From an uncultured Bacteroidales bacterium (GTDB lineage Bacteria > Bacteroidota > Bacteroidia > Bacteroidales > CAIWKO01): 64,000 bases of DNA. The notes under the pieces are model-generated. The model was not told where the DNA came from. It worked only from the letters and a program-made list of their open reading frames with translations, and searched no databases. The stretch spans positions 1 to 64,000 of the forward strand of contig CAIWKO010000020.1 in NCBI GenBank assembly GCA_903913285.1, read 5' to 3'. Shown piece after piece: positions 4,717-62,414 of this stretch (position 1 is the first letter of the stretch; every line of letters starts with the position of its first letter). The position numbers and the translations under genes were made by a program.

Positions 4717-5679
4717 ATGGTCGAAAAATATATCAGTAAGGGAAATAGATCAACCAAAGCGGGCTTTGGCGAAGGTATTCTTGATGCAGGTAAACAAAAC
4801 AATAAACTTGTTGTCTTGGGAGCTGATATCACTACTTCGGTAGGATTAAATTTATTTGCTAATGCTTATCACGAGCGTTTTTTTTCATTGGGAATTGCAG
4901 AACAAAATTGTGTGGGAGTTGCTGCAGGGTTAGCTTTGAGTGGTAAGATTCCTGTTTTTTCTACCTATGGCGTTTTTGCTGCATTAAGAACAGCTGATCA
5001 TATACGGGTTTCTATATGTTATAACAATCTTCATGTAATCATAGGCGGAGCTCATGCCGGCATATCTGTCGGACCTGACGGCGCAACTCATCAGGCTCTT
5101 GAAGATATTGCAGTGATGCGCGTTATGCCTTACATGACTGTGCTTTCGCCTTGCGATGCAACACAAGCTAAGTTATTAACGCTGTTGGCTGTAGAAAAAT
5201 TAGCCGGTCCGGTTTATATTCGTTTTGGCAGGGAGCCTGTTCCTGATTTTACGAGTGTCGATCAGAAGATTGAGATCGGAAAAGGGCAGGAGATGACTTC
5301 AGGTAACGATATTGCACTTATTGCTACTGGCCACATGGTTTGGGAAGCTTTGCAAGTGGCTTATCAACTTCACGAGAATGGCATAAATGCCCGAGTAATT
5401 AATTTGCATACCATAAAACCCATTGATAAGGACATGGTCATTAAGGCAGCTAAAGAAACAAAACGGGTTGTAACAATTGAGGAACATCAGGTTAATGCAG
5501 GATTTGGAAGCGCTGTTGCGGAAGTTATTGTTCAAAATTATCCTGTTAAAATGAAAATGATTGGCATGAACGATTGTTTTGGAGAATCGGGAAAACCAGA
5601 AGAACTGATGAAAAAATACAAACTCTCTGCTGACGAAATTTATAAAACTGTAAGCCAATTTATTCATGACAGCAATTAA
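4717..5679 (+). CDS. Transketolase, C-terminal (pyrimidine-binding) subunit
   Basis: A 320-residue partner of the preceding gene. It contains the transketolase pyrimidine-binding domain (VVLGADITTSVGLN, GIAEQNCVGVAAGLALSGK, STYGVFAALRTADHIR) and the C-terminal transketolase domain (VRINLHTIKPID-like region, VVTIEEHQVNAGFGSAVAE). Together with the N subunit it would form the active heterotetramer. The two are immediately adjacent and probably translationally coupled. It could also be labelled 1-deoxyxylulose-5-phosphate synthase-like, but the neighbour and length favour transketolase. Confidence 0.92.
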   Translation: MVEKYISKGNRSTKAGFGEGILDAGKQNNKLVVLGADITTSVGLNLFANAYHERFFSLGIAEQNCVGVAAGLALSGKIPVFSTYGVFAALRTADHIRVSICYNNLHVIIGGAHAGISVGPDGATHQALEDIAVMRVMPYMTVLSPCDATQAKLLTLLAVEKLAGPVYIRFGREPVPDFTSVDQKIEIGKGQEMTSGNDIALIATGHMVWEALQVAYQLHENGINARVINLHTIKPIDKDMVIKAAKETKRVVTIEEHQVNAGFGSAVAEVIVQNYPVKMKMIGMNDCFGESGKPEELMKKYKLSADEIYKTVSQFIHDSN

Positions 5680-5686
5680 TATCGAA

Positions 5687-6526
5687 ATGAAAATTTTTAA
5701 ATCAAGCACCATTCTTATTGTAATTTTATTGATTCTTATGGTTGCATATTATTTGATATTGCAAAATTATAAGGCACACGACACGAATAACATGCCAACT
5801 GATGCTCACAACGACACTTTGGTTCATAAAAAACAAATTAATAATAAAGTGTCAATAGATACTATTGTAAGTGTCGACTTTTTAACCGGTAAATTTAATC
5901 CTGCAAAAGATACTTCCTTTACACTGGTTGATCCCGAGTATGGTGGTAGGTCAGATATGTATCTGCTCAAAGATACCTACAAAGCCTTTATAAAAATGTT
6001 TTATGCTGCTCAGCATGATGGTGTCAAATTATATATTATCTCTGCTACTCGCAACTTCGTTTATCAGAAAAGCATATGGGAGCAAAAGTGGAACGGGAGT
6101 AAACTTGTTGAAGGAAAAAATCTTGCAACTTCCGTTAAAGATCCGGTAAAACGTGCCGAAATAATATTAAAATACAGTTCTATGCCTGCAACCTCACGCC
6201 ATCATTGGGGTACTGATGTAGATTTAAACAGTATGGATGATAAATATTTTTCCACTACTGAAGGTAAAATAGTATATAATTGGCTTTGTGCTAATGCCTC
6301 GAAATATGGATTTTGTCATCCCTTTAATTCTAAAAATGAGCGATCAAGTGGTTATGAGGAAGAAAAATGGCATTGGTCATACATGCCTCTGTCTAGAATA
6401 TTCTTAAATCAATACAAGAACAAAGTTACCTATGCAAATATTACAGGCTTCTCGGGTTGCGAAACAGCTTTAAAACTCGAAGTAATTAAAAACTATGTTT
6501 TGAGTATCAACTCCGAATGTAAATGA
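5687..6526 (+). CDS. M15-family D-alanyl-D-alanine carboxypeptidase-like protein
   Basis: About 279 residues from the ATG at 5687; an upstream ATG at 5666 would overlap the transketolase gene and add seven residues. One N-terminal membrane segment (about residues 5-25) anchors it, with the rest in the periplasm. The zinc-binding motifs of the VanY/M15B fold are present: SRHHWGTDVDLN and EKWHWSYMP, with a tyrosine-rich region before. Such enzymes trim D-Ala from peptidoglycan stem peptides or precursors. Last gene of the operon that starts at 3608. Its link with transketolase looks positional rather than functional. Confidence 0.85.
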   Translation: MKIFKSSTILIVILLILMVAYYLILQNYKAHDTNNMPTDAHNDTLVHKKQINNKVSIDTIVSVDFLTGKFNPAKDTSFTLVDPEYGGRSDMYLLKDTYKAFIKMFYAAQHDGVKLYIISATRNFVYQKSIWEQKWNGSKLVEGKNLATSVKDPVKRAEIILKYSSMPATSRHHWGTDVDLNSMDDKYFSTTEGKIVYNWLCANASKYGFCHPFNSKNERSSGYEEEKWHWSYMPLSRIFLNQYKNKVTYANITGFSGCETALKLEVIKNYVLSINSECK

Positions 6527-55056: not shown

Positions 55057-56358
55057 ATGACATTTCATATAAAAGAACCTGAACTTGATTTATTCCCTGA
55101 TGAAGTAATAATTGAACAGAATTACTCCGCAACCTTTGCAGATAATATGAGTTTGCCTGTTCACAAATGGTATCGTTATACTGCGGGTTTCTCTGCTACA
55201 TGGGTAAACCAATTAATTAAACAAGAAAAAGAAAATGGAAGAGTAAGAATAATTGACCCGTTTGCAGGTTCAGGAACTGTATTAATTGAAAGCGAATTCG
55301 AAGGTGTTGAATCTTATGGCATTGAAGCACATCCCTATATTTATAAAATTGCAAAAGCTAAACTTAATTGGAATTACCCAGCGGATAAATTTAAATCAGA
55401 AGCACTTGCTTTATTAAAAAAAGCAACCTCAATAAAAATTACCAAAACAGACTTCCCTAAATTGATTTTGAGTTGTTATCCGATTGAGGTTATTCAAAAA
55501 CTAGAAGCACTCAAACAATCATGGCTTTTATCAGATCAGGAAGATGAAATTAAAAATTTCAATTGGTTTGTTATTACTTCAATTTTACGAATAACATCCC
55601 CAGTAGGGACAGCACAGTGGCAATATATTCAGCCAAACAAAACAAAATCAAAAGTTATCGATCCGTTTATTGCGTTTGAAGGCAAAGTTCACGACATGTA
55701 TTCGGATATGAAACGAACTCAAAATCGTTTTAAAAATGTCGTTGATTCAATTATATTAAACGAAGATGCGAGGAATATTAAATCAATCCCAAACGGTTGG
55801 GGTGATTTAGTAATTACTTCTCCACCTTATGCAAATAATTATGATTATGCAGATGCAACCCGACTTGAAATGACCTTTTGGGGCGACATAAATGGATGGG
55901 CTGATTTGCAAGATAATATTAGAATAAATTTAGTCAGAGCCTGCACCCAACATGTTTCAAAGTTGGGTGAAAATATTGAACAGATATTGTCCAATCCAAA
56001 ATTATCAGCCATTCAGTCAGAATTGCTCGAAGTTTATGAAACATTAAAATTAGAACGGCTGAAACATGGAGGTAAAAAGAATTACCATTTCATGATTGCC
56101 GCCTATTTTAATGATCTTGCTGATGTTTTTCTTTCCCTGAGAAAGGTGACAAGCAACAATGCTAAAATGTGTTTTGTTATTGGTGACTCCGCTCCATATG
56201 GAATCTATGTACCGGTCGACAAATGGTTAGGTAAATTAGCAGTATCAGCAGGATTTAGCGACTATTCGTTTGAAAAACTCAGAGACCGCAATATAAAATG
56301 GAAAAATAGAAAACATACCGTTCCTTTGCACGAAGGACGTCTTTGGATAAACAGTTAA
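55057..56358 (+). CDS. DNA methyltransferase (SPPY type) of a predicted type II restriction-modification system
   Basis: 433 residues. SAM-binding motif DPFAGSGTVLIE (residues 67-78) precedes the catalytic TSPPYANNYDY (Ser255-Pro-Pro-Tyr258). SPPY is typical of N4-cytosine methyltransferases, though some N6-adenine enzymes share it. The motif I-before-IV order differs from the common beta-class order. The recognition site cannot be predicted. It would protect the host DNA from the nuclease encoded two bases downstream. It begins the defence island, right after the interspersed repeat at 54848. Confidence 0.88.
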   Translation: MTFHIKEPELDLFPDEVIIEQNYSATFADNMSLPVHKWYRYTAGFSATWVNQLIKQEKENGRVRIIDPFAGSGTVLIESEFEGVESYGIEAHPYIYKIAKAKLNWNYPADKFKSEALALLKKATSIKITKTDFPKLILSCYPIEVIQKLEALKQSWLLSDQEDEIKNFNWFVITSILRITSPVGTAQWQYIQPNKTKSKVIDPFIAFEGKVHDMYSDMKRTQNRFKNVVDSIILNEDARNIKSIPNGWGDLVITSPPYANNYDYADATRLEMTFWGDINGWADLQDNIRINLVRACTQHVSKLGENIEQILSNPKLSAIQSELLEVYETLKLERLKHGGKKNYHFMIAAYFNDLADVFLSLRKVTSNNAKMCFVIGDSAPYGIYVPVDKWLGKLAVSAGFSDYSFEKLRDRNIKWKNRKHTVPLHEGRLWINS

Positions 56359-56360
56359 TT

Positions 56361-57215
56361 ATGGCAAAATCATTATCACACAAATTCGGACAAATTGTAG
56401 GCGATTTATTGGAATTGGCATTATTACCTCAACTTGAAAATTTTGCTAAACAAAATAAACTTTTCCTTGACAAATATGGCATAAGAAAAGCAAGATCAGG
56501 TAAAAAAGTTACTTGGACAGATGTGAGTGGCAATAAACATGATCTAGATTTTGTTCTTGAACGAGGTGGTTCGAATGAAAAAATTGGAACCCCGGTGGCA
56601 TTTATCGAATCTGCTTGGCGAAGAGGTACAAGACATTCCAAGAATAAAGTTCAGGAAATTCAAGCTGCAATTAATCCAATTGTTCTTAAAAATAAGGCAA
56701 CAGTTTGTTTTAAAGGAGCAATTCTTGGGGGCGATTTTACAAAACCATCATTTAAACAATTAGAATCAGATAATTTTTCAATTTTATATTTTTCAACAGA
56801 CATATTTGTAAAGACTTTTAAGAAATTTGATCTTGATATTTTTTCAGATGATGCTACTGAAGAATCTGAATTCGCGAGAAGAATAGAATCATGGGCATCT
56901 TTTGATAAAAAAGATAAATTATGCAAAGAATTAGTTAAATTAAATAAAGAAAAAATTAATGAGTTTTTTGCCTCTCTAACTGAAGCTGTTTCTAGGTATA
57001 TAGAACAGGTAATAGTTTTACCTCTTCACGGAGAAGAAACAATATCAAAATCAATTAATGAAGCAATCGATTTTCTCAAAAAATATTCCGACGAAAAAAC
57101 TAAACTTCCATTACTAAAGTATGAGATAATTGTAAAATATAATAATGGGGATCGTATTGAAGCAAGCTTTAAAGATAAAAAGGATACAATAAAATTTTTG
57201 GAATCTTATTTATAA
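56361..57215 (+). CDS. Predicted type II restriction endonuclease (PD-(D/E)XK-like)
   Basis: 284 residues from the ATG at 56361, two bases after the methyltransferase stop. HDLDFVLERGG (Asp61/Asp63) and PVAFIESAWRRGTRHSKNK (Glu83) are spaced like the acidic residues of a PD-(D/E)XK nuclease; the usual Lys after the Glu is not obvious. The N-terminal SHKFGQIVGDLLELALLPQL and IQAAINPI regions recall families I associate with methyltransferase-linked restriction enzymes. Gene pairing supports the call more than the motif does. It ends six bases from the convergent kwaB gene. Confidence 0.7.
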   Translation: MAKSLSHKFGQIVGDLLELALLPQLENFAKQNKLFLDKYGIRKARSGKKVTWTDVSGNKHDLDFVLERGGSNEKIGTPVAFIESAWRRGTRHSKNKVQEIQAAINPIVLKNKATVCFKGAILGGDFTKPSFKQLESDNFSILYFSTDIFVKTFKKFDLDIFSDDATEESEFARRIESWASFDKKDKLCKELVKLNKEKINEFFASLTEAVSRYIEQVIVLPLHGEETISKSINEAIDFLKKYSDEKTKLPLLKYEIIVKYNNGDRIEASFKDKKDTIKFLESYL

Positions 57216-57221
57216 TAGATT

Positions 57222-58175
57222 TTAAATTGGCGATTTCCCTTTTATTTTATATAAACTGCCAGAAAATTCCGAATGTAAATAATCATCGTTTAGCATCTCA
57301 ACAAAAGCAACAGCCGATTTCTTGGTACTAATCGAAAGTTGTTTCTCATTTGTTGTCATTTTAAAATCGATCTTATATTTCTTTGCAAGTCTAACAATCT
57401 GTTTTGGCTGTTTTAATAATATTTTACTTTTAGGGTTTATATTTAATATTTTACGTAAAGTTGTTTTGTTTTTTGACAATTCAGCAATTTTTTCCATTCC
57501 TTCTGCAGATACTAAATTTGTTTTGGTAATTACATCTACATTAACTTCTGCAGTAGCTTGCATAGCATCTATATAATCAAAAGCCTTTTCAAATTCGGTT
57601 CTATTAATTATTATAAGCTCCTTTTCAATTAGCATAACATCGAAATGATTACTTAATCGAAGTAAATCTTTATCAAATAAACTTAATTTTCTATTTGAAA
57701 AAAATATTGAATAATTGTTCTCCTTTCTCAGGGTGCTTAATGAATAATTACGTTTCCAAAGAAACAACGTTCCCTCCATACATTGTACTTTGTAAATGTA
57801 AGACCATGCGTCCTTTAATTCTAGATTAGTTGGGTAATCTAATGCCGTATCCTTAACAACTTCATCAAAGATTAATTCAGCCTTTGGGATTTTTTTTGCG
57901 TTAACGTGAAATATTTGCCTGATATTATTTGCCTCTGCTGTATGAGCGCTAACAACTTCATACTGAAAATTTTCATTCTCTATAAAAAACAATCCCTTTA
58001 TTTGATTTCTTACCATTTTTTCTAACGCTGAACTTAATTTGTTTTCCTCTGCTGCAGGTAAATATGTATTAATATTCCCCAATTCATCTTCGTATTGAAG
58101 ATAAAGTTCGACACCAAAACTTTCATTTTCCTGTATAAAAGGTTGAAGTTTCTCTTGAAGTTGTACTTTGTTCAT
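57222..58175 (-). CDS. kwaB: Kiwa anti-phage system protein KwaB (DUF4868)
   Basis: 317 residues, the usual KwaB length. The C-terminal half (SLFDKDLLRLSNHFDVMLIE, IINRTEFEKAFDYIDAMQA, then a basic stretch SKILLKQPKQIVRLAKKYKI) matches the DUF4868 pattern. KwaB is the cytoplasmic DNA-binding partner of the membrane protein KwaA; together they stop some phages. Its start overlaps the kwaA stop by four bases (ATGA), indicating coupling. No other gene follows; the convergent endonuclease gene ends six bases away. Confidence 0.85.
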   Translation of the reverse strand: MNKVQLQEKLQPFIQENESFGVELYLQYEDELGNINTYLPAAEENKLSSALEKMVRNQIKGLFFIENENFQYEVVSAHTAEANNIRQIFHVNAKKIPKAELIFDEVVKDTALDYPTNLELKDAWSYIYKVQCMEGTLFLWKRNYSLSTLRKENNYSIFFSNRKLSLFDKDLLRLSNHFDVMLIEKELIIINRTEFEKAFDYIDAMQATAEVNVDVITKTNLVSAEGMEKIAELSKNKTTLRKILNINPKSKILLKQPKQIVRLAKKYKIDFKMTTNEKQLSISTKKSAVAFVEMLNDDYLHSEFSGSLYKIKGKSPI

Positions 58176-58744
58176 TTTTTTTCTGTTTTAATAAAATAAA
58201 TATCGTCTCCTAGTTCTTTGTATTTATATGAATTGTTCTTTTTCAACTTCCCATAACATATGACAGTCCTTTCTTCTCCATCTTCGAATGTTACCGAAAA
58301 AATATAATAACCAAATAAAGCAAGGGTTGGATTAGCGTATAATAAATTCGTTTTTGTATAAATGAATCCAATAACAACAAATAATAGTGTTGTTGCAAGT
58401 AAATTGTTCCAAGAATCAAACTTAAGTCCAATAAATGGTATTATATAAGTGGCTAGATAAGAAAGGTATTCTACTCCTGAATTTTTTATTCGAATGATCT
58501 TTTTAGGATTTCGAAAACCAGCACTACTATTTGCTCGAATAAATAATAAATAATAAAAAAAGGACAACAATGAAATTAATAATAATATAAATGGCAATAA
58601 ATTATTATGGAAAATTTGGCCAGAAGTATAAGCAACTCCCTTATCATCGAACAACTTGCAATTTAAATTTTGAACTGAAAGAATGAAGAACAATGGAATA
58701 TACGATACTAAGAATAGTGCAAACAGAGTTGTTTTTCTAATCAT
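58172..58744 (-). CDS. kwaA: Kiwa anti-phage system membrane protein KwaA
   Basis: 190 residues with four predicted membrane helices (about 5-25, 50-70, 92-110 and 113-131). A short cytoplasmic beta-rich tail follows, beginning YANPTLALFGYYIFSV, a segment typical of KwaA. KwaA is thought to sense phage-caused changes at the inner membrane. The gene is 32 bases behind the PD-(D/E)XK gene and overlaps kwaB, so the four genes from 60119 to 57222 probably form one transcript. Confidence 0.83.
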   Translation of the reverse strand: MIRKTTLFALFLVSYIPLFFILSVQNLNCKLFDDKGVAYTSGQIFHNNLLPFILLLISLLSFFYYLLFIRANSSAGFRNPKKIIRIKNSGVEYLSYLATYIIPFIGLKFDSWNNLLATTLLFVVIGFIYTKTNLLYANPTLALFGYYIFSVTFEDGEERTVICYGKLKKNNSYKYKELGDDIYFIKTEKK

Positions 58745-58776
58745 TTTATTATCATTTTTTCATTTTCTTTGATTAA

Positions 58777-59817
58777 TTAATTCATCTCCTTCGAAATAAT
58801 ACAACCGACTAAAAACTCCTTATATCTATTAAGACGTTTAATAATTGCCGGTTTATCGATAATCGAATTTCCGAGTCCAAGCCAAACATCTCTTTCAACA
58901 ATAGCGGCAGTCATATAATTGCCACTTCCAAATCTATCGGGTCTTCTGACTTCAGAAATACCAATTGATTTTGCTTTAGCTAAAATAATACTATTCCATT
59001 TATTTCTAATTTCGCCTCTATTAAACTCATAATCTACATCAATTTCATCTGGAGCAGTGGCAATTTTAAAACAAAGTTTCCCTTGTTCAATTTGAAGGTA
59101 AACAGGAAATCCCTCCCAATCCTCCCAGTTTAAACATGCATTCCAAAATCCACCTCCACCAGGAGGATTTACATAATGCCAATGGACTAGTCCAATTTCA
59201 TGTTCAAGAAATTGGTAAAACCCTATCCAGCATTCGTCATTCCAATTATCAATTTTGGTTGTTAGAAAAGCATTATAAGTAGCCTCAACATTCAATAAAC
59301 GGTCAGTAAAATCTCTGAAAATATTATTATTGATATCCTTATGTTTTTCTAATAATTTTATAAAATCTTGCCTATTAAAAGTATGAAAACCTTTGGAACG
59401 AATCAAATTTAATATTCTTTCTGGTTCACTGCCGGTTTTAATGTACACTAATACAAGTTTAAAATTATTCTTCGCACAATAATCCTCTCCTGTCTTTTTA
59501 TATCTTATAAGTTGGTCTGAATGTTCAGAGGAAAAAGTTTTGTCTTCAATTATTAATAAATAATTGTCTTCAGGAGTATTAACAAGTGCCCAAATATCAA
59601 TATATTCCCATCCGCCTCTGCCTGCTTCAACTTTTGTAATCGTGGAAAAGGTTTGTTGATGTTGGGCTGCAATAAGCTGTCTTAAAAACTCCTGTGCGCA
59701 AGAATGAAGAAGATCGTCATGTTTTTTGTTTTCTGGGTCGGCCCATTGAATAAGCCACGCAATAAAAGCGTCTTGATGTAACTCTTTGGTTGCAATATCA
59801 AAAATGTTTGGCTTCAT
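58777..59817 (-). CDS. PD-(D/E)XK nuclease superfamily protein (PDDEXK_4-like) in the Kiwa operon
   Basis: 346 residues. The nuclease core is clear: WEYIDIWALV with Asp74, then NYLLIIEDKTFSSEHSDQL with Glu91-Asp-Lys93 and Gln102, as in the PDDEXK_4 family. The N-terminus ELHQDAFIAWLIQWADP is also typical of that family. The C-terminal half (GFYQFLEHEI, PPGGGGFWNACLNWEDWEG, VYLQIEQGKLCFKI) is a separate beta-rich domain that may recognise a ligand or DNA. All three core residues are intact, so nuclease activity is plausible. Its ATG overlaps the stop of the 100-residue protein gene (TAATG), and kwaA follows after 32 bases. Confidence 0.8.
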   Translation of the reverse strand: MKPNIFDIATKELHQDAFIAWLIQWADPENKKHDDLLHSCAQEFLRQLIAAQHQQTFSTITKVEAGRGGWEYIDIWALVNTPEDNYLLIIEDKTFSSEHSDQLIRYKKTGEDYCAKNNFKLVLVYIKTGSEPERILNLIRSKGFHTFNRQDFIKLLEKHKDINNNIFRDFTDRLLNVEATYNAFLTTKIDNWNDECWIGFYQFLEHEIGLVHWHYVNPPGGGGFWNACLNWEDWEGFPVYLQIEQGKLCFKIATAPDEIDVDYEFNRGEIRNKWNSIILAKAKSIGISEVRRPDRFGSGNYMTAAIVERDVWLGLGNSIIDKPAIIKRLNRYKEFLVGCIISKEMN

Positions 59818-60119
59818 TATGCGCTTCTTGTGTTTAAAAGTTTACAATTTTTATCATAAGTTTTCATCCAGCTACCTTCCTTACAAGTAAACGTTTGGCC
59901 CGATGCAACTCGAACTATTTTTCCACTACTCGACATAACTGCAATTTGTTTACATTTCTCATCATAAGTTTTTATCCATGAGCCTTCATTGCAAACGAAG
60001 AAATCAGAACTAATACCCACTACCTCTTTTCCAGATGCGGACATTACTGAAATCTGTTTGCCTTTTTCATCGAAAGTTTTTATCCAACTTCCATCTGTTT
60101 TTACGTCTGATATTGCCAT
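59817..60119 (-). CDS. 100-residue protein made of three GSW(I/M)KT repeats
   Basis: Three units of about 33-37 residues: GSWIKTFDEKGKQISVMSAS, GSWIKTYDEKCKQIAVMSSS and GSWMKTYDKNCKLLNTRSA. Each pair is joined by a GKxVxxxxSGQTFTCKE-type link. No signal peptide or membrane segment; likely a small beta-repeat protein in the cytoplasm. I remember similar short proteins in other Bacteroidota and can name no function. The stop overlaps the next ATG by one base, which ties its production to the PD-(D/E)XK protein. It is the first gene of the operon that ends in kwaAB. Confidence 0.75.
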   Translation of the reverse strand: MAISDVKTDGSWIKTFDEKGKQISVMSASGKEVVGISSDFFVCNEGSWIKTYDEKCKQIAVMSSSGKIVRVASGQTFTCKEGSWMKTYDKNCKLLNTRSA

Positions 60120-60120
60120 A

Positions 60121-60175
60121 ATTTTAAGTTTTAATTTTCGCCTACTCTTTTCGGTTTTCGGCTTCTCCGTTTTCT
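60121..60175 (-). repeat. Leader-like sequence shared with the gene at 60740
   Basis: On the minus strand the last 55 bases before ATG 60119 (AACGGAGAAGCCG, AGTAGG, GAAAATTAAAA) resemble those before ATG 60740 (AACGGGGCGCAAC, AGTAGG, AAAATTAAAA). Similarity is partial. It may be a dispersed repeat or a common control sequence. Confidence 0.4.
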
Positions 60176-60236
60176 TTTTTATATAGAAAATTACTTAATT
60201 CTGTATAATTCTAATAGCTTATTATTTATCTTTATT

Positions 60237-60740
60237 TTAAAAAGAAACTTTTACTCCATATTTATTATCCATAATTCTTACTTGTTTTGGCTCAAAATGA
60301 TATTCCTTTCCTTCGATTTGAAGAAGATAAGGTTGAAGCAACATTTCACCAATATTGTTTACATTTACATCAATAAATGGCTCATCCGTCACAGCAGTTC
60401 CATTAGGTTTTACATTATCAATTTGTAGATTTTTCTTTTCTCCTAAATAGTCTCCTTTCTTACTTTTTAATGAAACATCAACCCAAAAATTATCAATTGT
60501 TTTATTAAGTAAACTTTTAAGTTCAAATTTTATATTACCAGTACCATAACTATTCCACATTTTAACTAACTTTAATTCAAAATATTTATTCGTATCAGGA
60601 GTTTGTTTATTTTTAGCATCTGTTGTAATTGAATCCGTTTTCACATTGTCTTTTTTTTCTTTTTCTTTTGCAAATTGTCCACAAGAAGAAAAAAACATTA
60701 ATAAAACAACTATGGTTGATGCAATTAATGATAATTTCAT
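60237..60740 (-). CDS. Predicted lipoprotein
   Basis: 167 residues with a lipoprotein signal (LIASTIVVLLMFFSSCGQ; Cys20 lipidated). A charged K/D/T linker follows, then a beta-rich domain (FELKLVKMWNSYGTGNIKFE, VDVSLKSKKGDYLGEKKN). The domain looks like an extracellular immunoglobulin-like fold of unknown role. It is 117 bases upstream of the defence operon in the same direction and shares the leader-like sequence, but I see no direct sign that it takes part in defence. Confidence 0.7.
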   Translation of the reverse strand: MKLSLIASTIVVLLMFFSSCGQFAKEKEKKDNVKTDSITTDAKNKQTPDTNKYFELKLVKMWNSYGTGNIKFELKSLLNKTIDNFWVDVSLKSKKGDYLGEKKNLQIDNVKPNGTAVTDEPFIDVNVNNIGEMLLQPYLLQIEGKEYHFEPKQVRIMDNKYGVKVSF

Positions 60741-60880
60741 TTTTATAAATTTTAATTTTCCTACTATCTGGCTTTTCAGTTGCGCCCCGTTTTTTTAAGT
60801 GGTTTCTGGTTTCCACTTTATTATACTTCAAAAATAATTAATTTTCAATACAAAATAAAAATATTAACATAAAAAAAAAC

Positions 60881-62116: not shown

Positions 62117-62124
62117 CTTTTCCA

Positions 62125-62414
62125 TTTCCAATGCCTGAGTTTCCATTTCCAATGCCTGAGTTTGCATTTCCAATGCCCGAGTTTGCATTTCCAATGCCCG
62201 AGGTAGCATTTCCAATGCCCGAGGTAGCGTTTCCAATGCCCGAGTTTGCATTACCAATGCCTGAGGTAGCATTTCCAATGCCCGAGGTAGCGATTCCAAT
62301 GCCCGAGTTTGCATTTCCAATGCCTGAGGTAGCATTTCCAATGCCCGAGTTTGCATTTCCAATGCCCGAGGCAGCATTTCCAATGCCCGAATTTTCATTT
62401 CCGTTGCAACACTA
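62125..62414. repeat. 21-bp tandem repeat array D (about 14 units)
   Basis: Units start with TTTCC at 62125 and every 21 bp to 62398 without exception. The unit reads TTTCCAATGCCCGAGTTTGC plus one base; the second half alternates between two versions (AGTTTGCA and AGGTAGCA). On the other strand the unit contains TTGGAAATGC, sharing the TTGGAA core with arrays B and C. The array sits in the 680-base gap between 61895 and 62576, both neighbours being on the minus strand. Confidence 0.92.

Follow-up and report, generated by a model that had tools for sequence, protein, structure and literature searches.

Does a Kiwa system whose two genes stand close behind a nuclease gene and a small repeat-protein gene form part of a larger defence machine? 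The question is raised by a locus in the window (the whole stretch of 64,000 nucleotides of DNA from an uncultured Bacteroidales bacterium that was analysed here), in which rep, a nuclease gene, kwaA and kwaB follow one another in that order on the minus strand from 60119 to 57222. The layout, strand and spacing are as the original prediction had described them: rep and the nuclease gene overlap by 1 nt (TAATG), the nuclease gene and kwaA are 32 nt apart, and kwaA and kwaB overlap by 4 nt. From this spacing, a single transcript had been predicted and, possibly, a combined system that had gained the nuclease as a further effector. The features of the locus and its surroundings are as follows.

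55057-56358, plus strand: type II DNA methyltransferase, convergent neighbour (PADLOC MTase_II, 1.7e-118)
56343-57215, plus strand: type II restriction endonuclease, convergent neighbour (PADLOC REase_II, 3.5e-62)
57222-58175, minus strand: kwaB (DUF4868/KwaB; Pfam PF16162, PADLOC KwaB)
58172-58744, minus strand: kwaA, Kiwa membrane protein (NCBIfam NF041622, PADLOC KwaA)
58777-59817, minus strand: PD-(D/E)XK nuclease (PDDEXK_4, Pfam PF14281), 346 aa, overlapping rep by 1 nt
59817-60119, minus strand: rep, 100 aa, three repeats, predicted beta-propeller fragment with an IceA2-like fold
60139-60171, minus strand: DUF805b RNA (Rfam RF02914, cmscan), ending 19 nt upstream of the rep start codon
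60740-60237, minus strand: 167-aa lipoprotein-like gene led by the DUF805 RNA, a neighbouring RNA-led unit before the rep unit
60754-60821, minus strand: DUF805 RNA (Rfam RF03081; cmscan 72.3 bits, gathering threshold 51.1)

At the level of family models, the assignment of kwaA and kwaB to Kiwa is confirmed. KwaA scores 132.9 bits against the NCBIfam model (cut-off 100) and 5.6e-40 against that of PADLOC, with hydrophobic segments at residues 6-24 and 44-72; KwaB scores 104.8 bits against the Pfam model (cut-off 26.3; 7e-30), 9.5e-33 against that of PADLOC and 116.6 against the NCBIfam equivalog, under the cut-off of 200. The presence of both genes, their order, their overlap and the family scores all agree with known Kiwa, which, however, consists of two genes, whereas here a nuclease module precedes them on the same strand. 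At another locus (L058), kwaA is preceded at a distance of 43 nt by an 80-aa open reading frame (5538-5780) that reaches no Pfam cut-off, suggesting that small genes may precede Kiwa too.

The nuclease, correctly recognised beforehand as PDDEXK_4-like, matches this family at 37.9 bits (cut-off 22.3), and Asp74, Glu91, Lys93, Gln102 and Tyr106 are invariant in an alignment of 40 homologues that are 32-68% identical to it. The predicted model (pLDDT 93) consists of a nuclease domain, at about residues 7-169, with a fold matching the nuclease domains of AF1548, Can2 and Card1 (Z 7-8.5), and a separate C-terminal domain (residues 185-346) that resembles chaperone-like folds only weakly. The catalytic D...(D/E)xK signature within this predicted fold places the protein in the PD-(D/E)XK superfamily; a search of PDB sequences with the nuclease profile gave no significant match. 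In common with PDDEXK_4 nucleases and the PADLOC candidate PDC-S26, the protein bears D74, ExK and QxxxY in an N-terminal nuclease domain, and the PADLOC match to PDC-S26 (1e-10) is limited to residues 2-175; unlike PDC-S26, it carries a C-terminal domain outside the match and is abutted by a small gene. No relatives of the nuclease were found in viral contigs.

The 100-residue product of rep matches no Pfam, NCBIfam or PADLOC family above cut-off, and the three internal repeats that had been predicted are visible in the alignment. Its AlphaFold model (pLDDT 95) is an all-beta propeller fragment that superimposes on Helicobacter pylori IceA2 (PDB 7xfp) with Z 10.0 and rmsd 2.8 over 91 of 93 aa, and IceA2 is the only protein of similar size among the close PDB matches. 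Nevertheless, homology of rep and IceA2 is unproven, because unrelated propellers match the model with equal scores and sequence profiles built from 7 and 15 rep sequences gave no significant match in the PDB, to IceA2 or to any other chain. In H. pylori, iceA2 alternates with iceA1, a restriction gene, at a single locus next to a methylase (PMC13340068). The two loci share a small protein of ~93-100 aa with a matching predicted fold, a likeness to be read with the caveat that propeller fragments match many proteins, beside a restriction-related gene; the iceA2 locus, next to the hpyIM methylase, differs in belonging to another group of organisms and in the lack of detectable sequence similarity to rep. 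No rep was found in phages.

The four genes sit inside a small defence cluster, given that a type II methyltransferase and a restriction enzyme converge on kwaB, the endonuclease gene stopping 6 nt short of the kwaB end. A simple terminator scan of the minus strand from 60119 to 57222 gave no convincing site: matches were no more numerous than in shuffled sequence, and the sole match inside the nuclease gene is weak (5 pairs, 59166-59153). A scan for Bacteroidota-type promoters revealed none that is clear in the 32-nt gap between the nuclease gene and kwaA, a weak promoter-like match within the nuclease gene at 58929, 185 nt upstream of kwaA, and a promoter-like TATTTTTG that ends at 60829, immediately upstream of the DUF805 RNA. 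The predicted single transcript is therefore plausible for all four genes, but uncertain in view of the weak internal match at 58929. The G+C content is 34-35% in rep and the nuclease gene versus 27-30% in kwaA and kwaB, a difference that speaks for two separate modules. Farther upstream, a tandem array with 13.5 copies of a 21-bp unit (62119-62402), open on both strands, precedes a gene for a 340-aa protein (61958-60936).

If the nuclease were an added effector of Kiwa, the two halves of the locus would be expected in each other's company elsewhere. Among 395 Bacteroidia genomes, the nuclease was matched in 10, rep in 14 and kwaA in 8, and only the window combines rep and the nuclease with kwaA. 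With 80 further nuclease loci drawn from the genome collection, neither kwaA nor kwaB was detected by HMM search in any of 95 nuclease loci, which are all the fetched loci with a nuclease by HMM search, some of them fetched twice. Conversely, the nuclease and rep are missing from all 12 other Kiwa loci inspected, comprising seven independent Bacteroidia kwaAB loci (HMM search) and five plasmid loci (by annotation). The closest kwaA (75% identical, G029) comes without nuclease and rep, and the closest nuclease (68% identical, L061, on a short contig) without Kiwa. The four-gene order, proposed as the test of a combined system, thus was not found in the other genomes searched, and homologues of the first two genes were never found near kwaAB elsewhere, the outcome that had been named as speaking against it; the other observation that would have parted the two halves, a promoter and terminator between the nuclease gene and kwaA, was not made.

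The combined system can be phrased as an extended Kiwa: KwaA and KwaB would recruit the nuclease or act ahead of it. This has a biochemical attraction: KwaA is the membrane sensor of infection, and KwaB binds phage DNA without cleaving it (reviewed in PMC12904381), so an added nuclease would make sense as the source of the missing cleavage. The close spacing and the missing convincing terminator or clear promoter also fit one integrated operon as well as they fit two adjoining modules. However, tight spacing is weak evidence of joint function, because kwaA abuts other genes elsewhere, lying 2 nt behind hsdS (L057) and 25 nt behind tolC (in two Emticicia plasmids); a short distance to an unrelated upstream gene is no rarity in Kiwa loci. 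With the pairing absent from all other loci searched with the HMMs, a joint Kiwa-nuclease system is unsupported, and we consider the extended Kiwa improbable. A rare functional composite in one lineage could exist, considering that the Kiwa sample is small, about 12 independent loci. The reading that we favour, and regard as probable, is that two autonomous defence modules are stacked on one transcript led by the DUF805b RNA, since rep and the nuclease behave elsewhere as an independent mobile unit with an exchangeable small gene.

The exchange is seen most directly among nuclease genes with 89-96% DNA identity, in which the slot in front of the nuclease holds rep (L028, with the identical 1-nt overlap and without Kiwa), a zinc-ribbon gene (L027, L127) or a DUF6140 gene (L128, nuclease 89% identical), behind leaders that are about 81-89% identical. 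In the closest comparison, L027 and L028 are 95.9% identical in nuclease DNA and 87% identical in the 126-nt leader before the small gene, and L027 encodes a 74-aa double zinc ribbon in place of the L028 rep. In L112 and L124, the slot is filled by Asp-box-like genes, which leave a gap of about 20 nt. Proteins of this kind upstream of the nuclease (L112, L124, L084) carry Asp-box-like YSTNDGRSW repeats, a further repeat type. The slot is not tied to one effector either: a GmrSD gene follows it in two loci, behind rep in L033 and behind a zinc-ribbon gene in L284, and these GmrSD proteins are only 22% identical, although their leaders are 91% identical. Either small gene thus occurs with either effector, the nuclease in L028 and L027 and GmrSD in L033 and L284, so that all four pairings are represented. 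Several loci in this comparison come from metagenome-assembled genomes, which may be misbinned; isolate genomes with pairs of this kind include Indibacter (L071) and Tenacibaculum (L098). A small gene before the nuclease is favoured but optional, abutting it in 16 of 47 Bacteroidota nuclease loci compared to 16 of 136 control genes, which were other large genes in the same loci (Fisher p 0.0013), and in 2 of 33 nuclease loci outside Bacteroidota.

Some of these units appear to be mobile in an integron-like manner. In L027, L028, L127, L128 and L033, the shared segment starts at GTTACCTGCTATGTTAG and, past a hairpin, ends at ACG/TT, with the inverted copy AACACAGCAGGTAAC lying in the end of the effector gene, be it nuclease or GmrSD; one attC-like site forms a long imperfect hairpin (z -2), and in L033 and L127 several such sites are arrayed with restriction-modification genes. 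These G/TTACC to ACG/TT units with an imperfect-palindrome hairpin resemble integron gene cassettes with defence genes. The cassette contents in the arrays of these five Bacteroidota loci include rep with GmrSD, zinc ribbon with nuclease, and restriction-modification genes. An integron integrase was not found: all tyrosine recombinases score below the integron cut-off and none was seen beside the arrays. According to published surveys, Bacteroidetes have almost no integrons (PMC9024848), a point of difference, as is the window copy itself. The patterns used revealed neither a GTTACCTGCTATGTTAG-like start near the window rep nor any attC-like site between 55 and 64 kb; lacking such ends, the window copy was rejected as an integron cassette, and it either lost them or never had them.

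These units also share a leader. The DUF805b RNA before the window rep (cmscan 41.9 bits, gathering threshold 35.6) has counterparts ahead of rep and nuclease (L028, L071), rep and GmrSD (L033), and BNR and nuclease (L112). It is a general leader and not a mark of defence, because in 40 sampled sites it usually lies 15-30 nt upstream of the start codons of many unrelated kinds of genes; preceding rhodopsin-like, secreted and many other genes, it was discarded as a defence-specific signal. DUF805b was found in 171 of the 395 Bacteroidia genomes, and the DUF805 clan, which also includes the DUF805 RNA of the window, occurs about 20 times in the window's genome, sub-threshold matches included, with several occurrences in tandem. 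Folding of the DUF805b leader alone is no better than that of shuffled sequences, and a literature search found no account of the function of this RNA family.

Tandem arrays of the clan lie in G000 on contigs C10 (15.1-17.0 kb and 110.7-111.5 kb), C4 (45.9-46.7 kb) and C22 (48.7-49.6 kb), and in the window at 60139-60821, each RNA leading a small gene that is often secreted or hypothetical. A recurring protein of ~203 aa adjoins several arrays (C10, C4, C51, C67), accompanied in C10 and C4 by a repeat-rich open reading frame; no similarity was seen between the 340-aa neighbour in the window and the 203-aa protein next to a different DUF805 array. At L219, L220, L232, L208, L225 and L230, DUF805b leads rhodopsin-like genes and short GG-motif peptides, the latter resembling secreted-peptide precursors.

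What the small protein does for the nuclease can be read in two other ways. Rep and the nuclease might form a toxin-antitoxin-like or sensor-effector pair, in which rep inhibits the nuclease or senses a phage trigger and the zinc-ribbon, DUF6140 and Asp-box proteins answer to other triggers. The excess of abutting small genes over the controls, the four recognisable families that share the slot and the separate C-terminal domain of the nuclease are all consistent with such a pair, which we nonetheless regard as unlikely. No such small gene accompanies the nuclease in 31 of the 47 Bacteroidota loci or in 31 of the 33 from elsewhere, and L131 retains only about the first 11 rep residues (5950-6000), fused in frame to the nuclease, which suggests deletion of the small gene; therefore, rep does not appear to be an obligatory inhibitor, and it is unlikely to be an obligatory antitoxin, because the majority of nuclease homologues have no small gene at all. 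Besides, rep is found in front of GmrSD, an unrelated effector. Rep may be a genuine sensor or inhibitor, albeit one dispensable for most nuclease homologues.

Somewhat less doubtful, but still short of an even chance, is that rep is a translated leader only, that is, a strongly translated open reading frame behind DUF805b that sets the expression of the effector, the protein itself having little to do with defence. The 1-nt TAATG-type junctions, the swapping of unrelated small genes and the position of DUF805b at about 15-30 nt before many unrelated genes across Bacteroidia fit this reading. The small proteins, however, are conserved families, the rep fold is confidently predicted, and a terminator-like hairpin with a T run parts the small gene from GmrSD in L033 (5533-5606) and L284 (4443-4505), suggesting that the small gene may outexpress the effector and arguing against simple coupling. 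On balance, rep probably acts in the regulation or translational coupling of nuclease output.

Under the stacked-module model, the first module would consist of a promoter, a leader with the DUF805b RNA, an exchangeable small gene, in this case rep, and the PD-(D/E)XK nuclease, with the leader and the 1-nt overlap making nuclease output dependent on the transcription and translation of rep; the nuclease would most likely cut invading nucleic acid, such as phage DNA, independently of Kiwa. The second module would be an ordinary Kiwa, with membrane-bound KwaA sensing infection and KwaB binding DNA, and kwaAB would ride along downstream of rep and the nuclease gene. The two modules would act additively rather than jointly.

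PD-(D/E)XK defence nucleases and Kiwa are already known; the stacked order of rep, nuclease and kwaAB is new and apparently unique. The more surprising part, and the one worth following, is the exchangeable small gene. Exchangeable genes upstream of diverse immune operons have been described in CapK/CapS, CapW/BrxR and CapH/CapP (PMC13373217), which, unlike rep, the zinc ribbon and DUF6140, are DNA-damage-responsive regulators with known domains. As far as we searched, there is no description of small genes being swapped in front of unrelated defence nucleases that share a DUF805b leader. As a speculation to which we give low credence, this swapping might reflect a combinatorial form of defence in Bacteroidota, in which cassettes led by DUF805b are assembled in integron-like arrays and a small module (rep/IceA2-like, double zinc ribbon, DUF6140 or Asp-box) is swapped before a PD-(D/E)XK nuclease or GmrSD, setting how or when the effector fires; the unit in the window would have captured Kiwa.

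The tempting reading of the locus is thereby corrected, in that tight spacing by itself does not make a combined Kiwa. In its place stands a pattern open to testing: behind a DUF805b leader, small genes replace one another ahead of unrelated defence nucleases, which ties this RNA family to defence operons.
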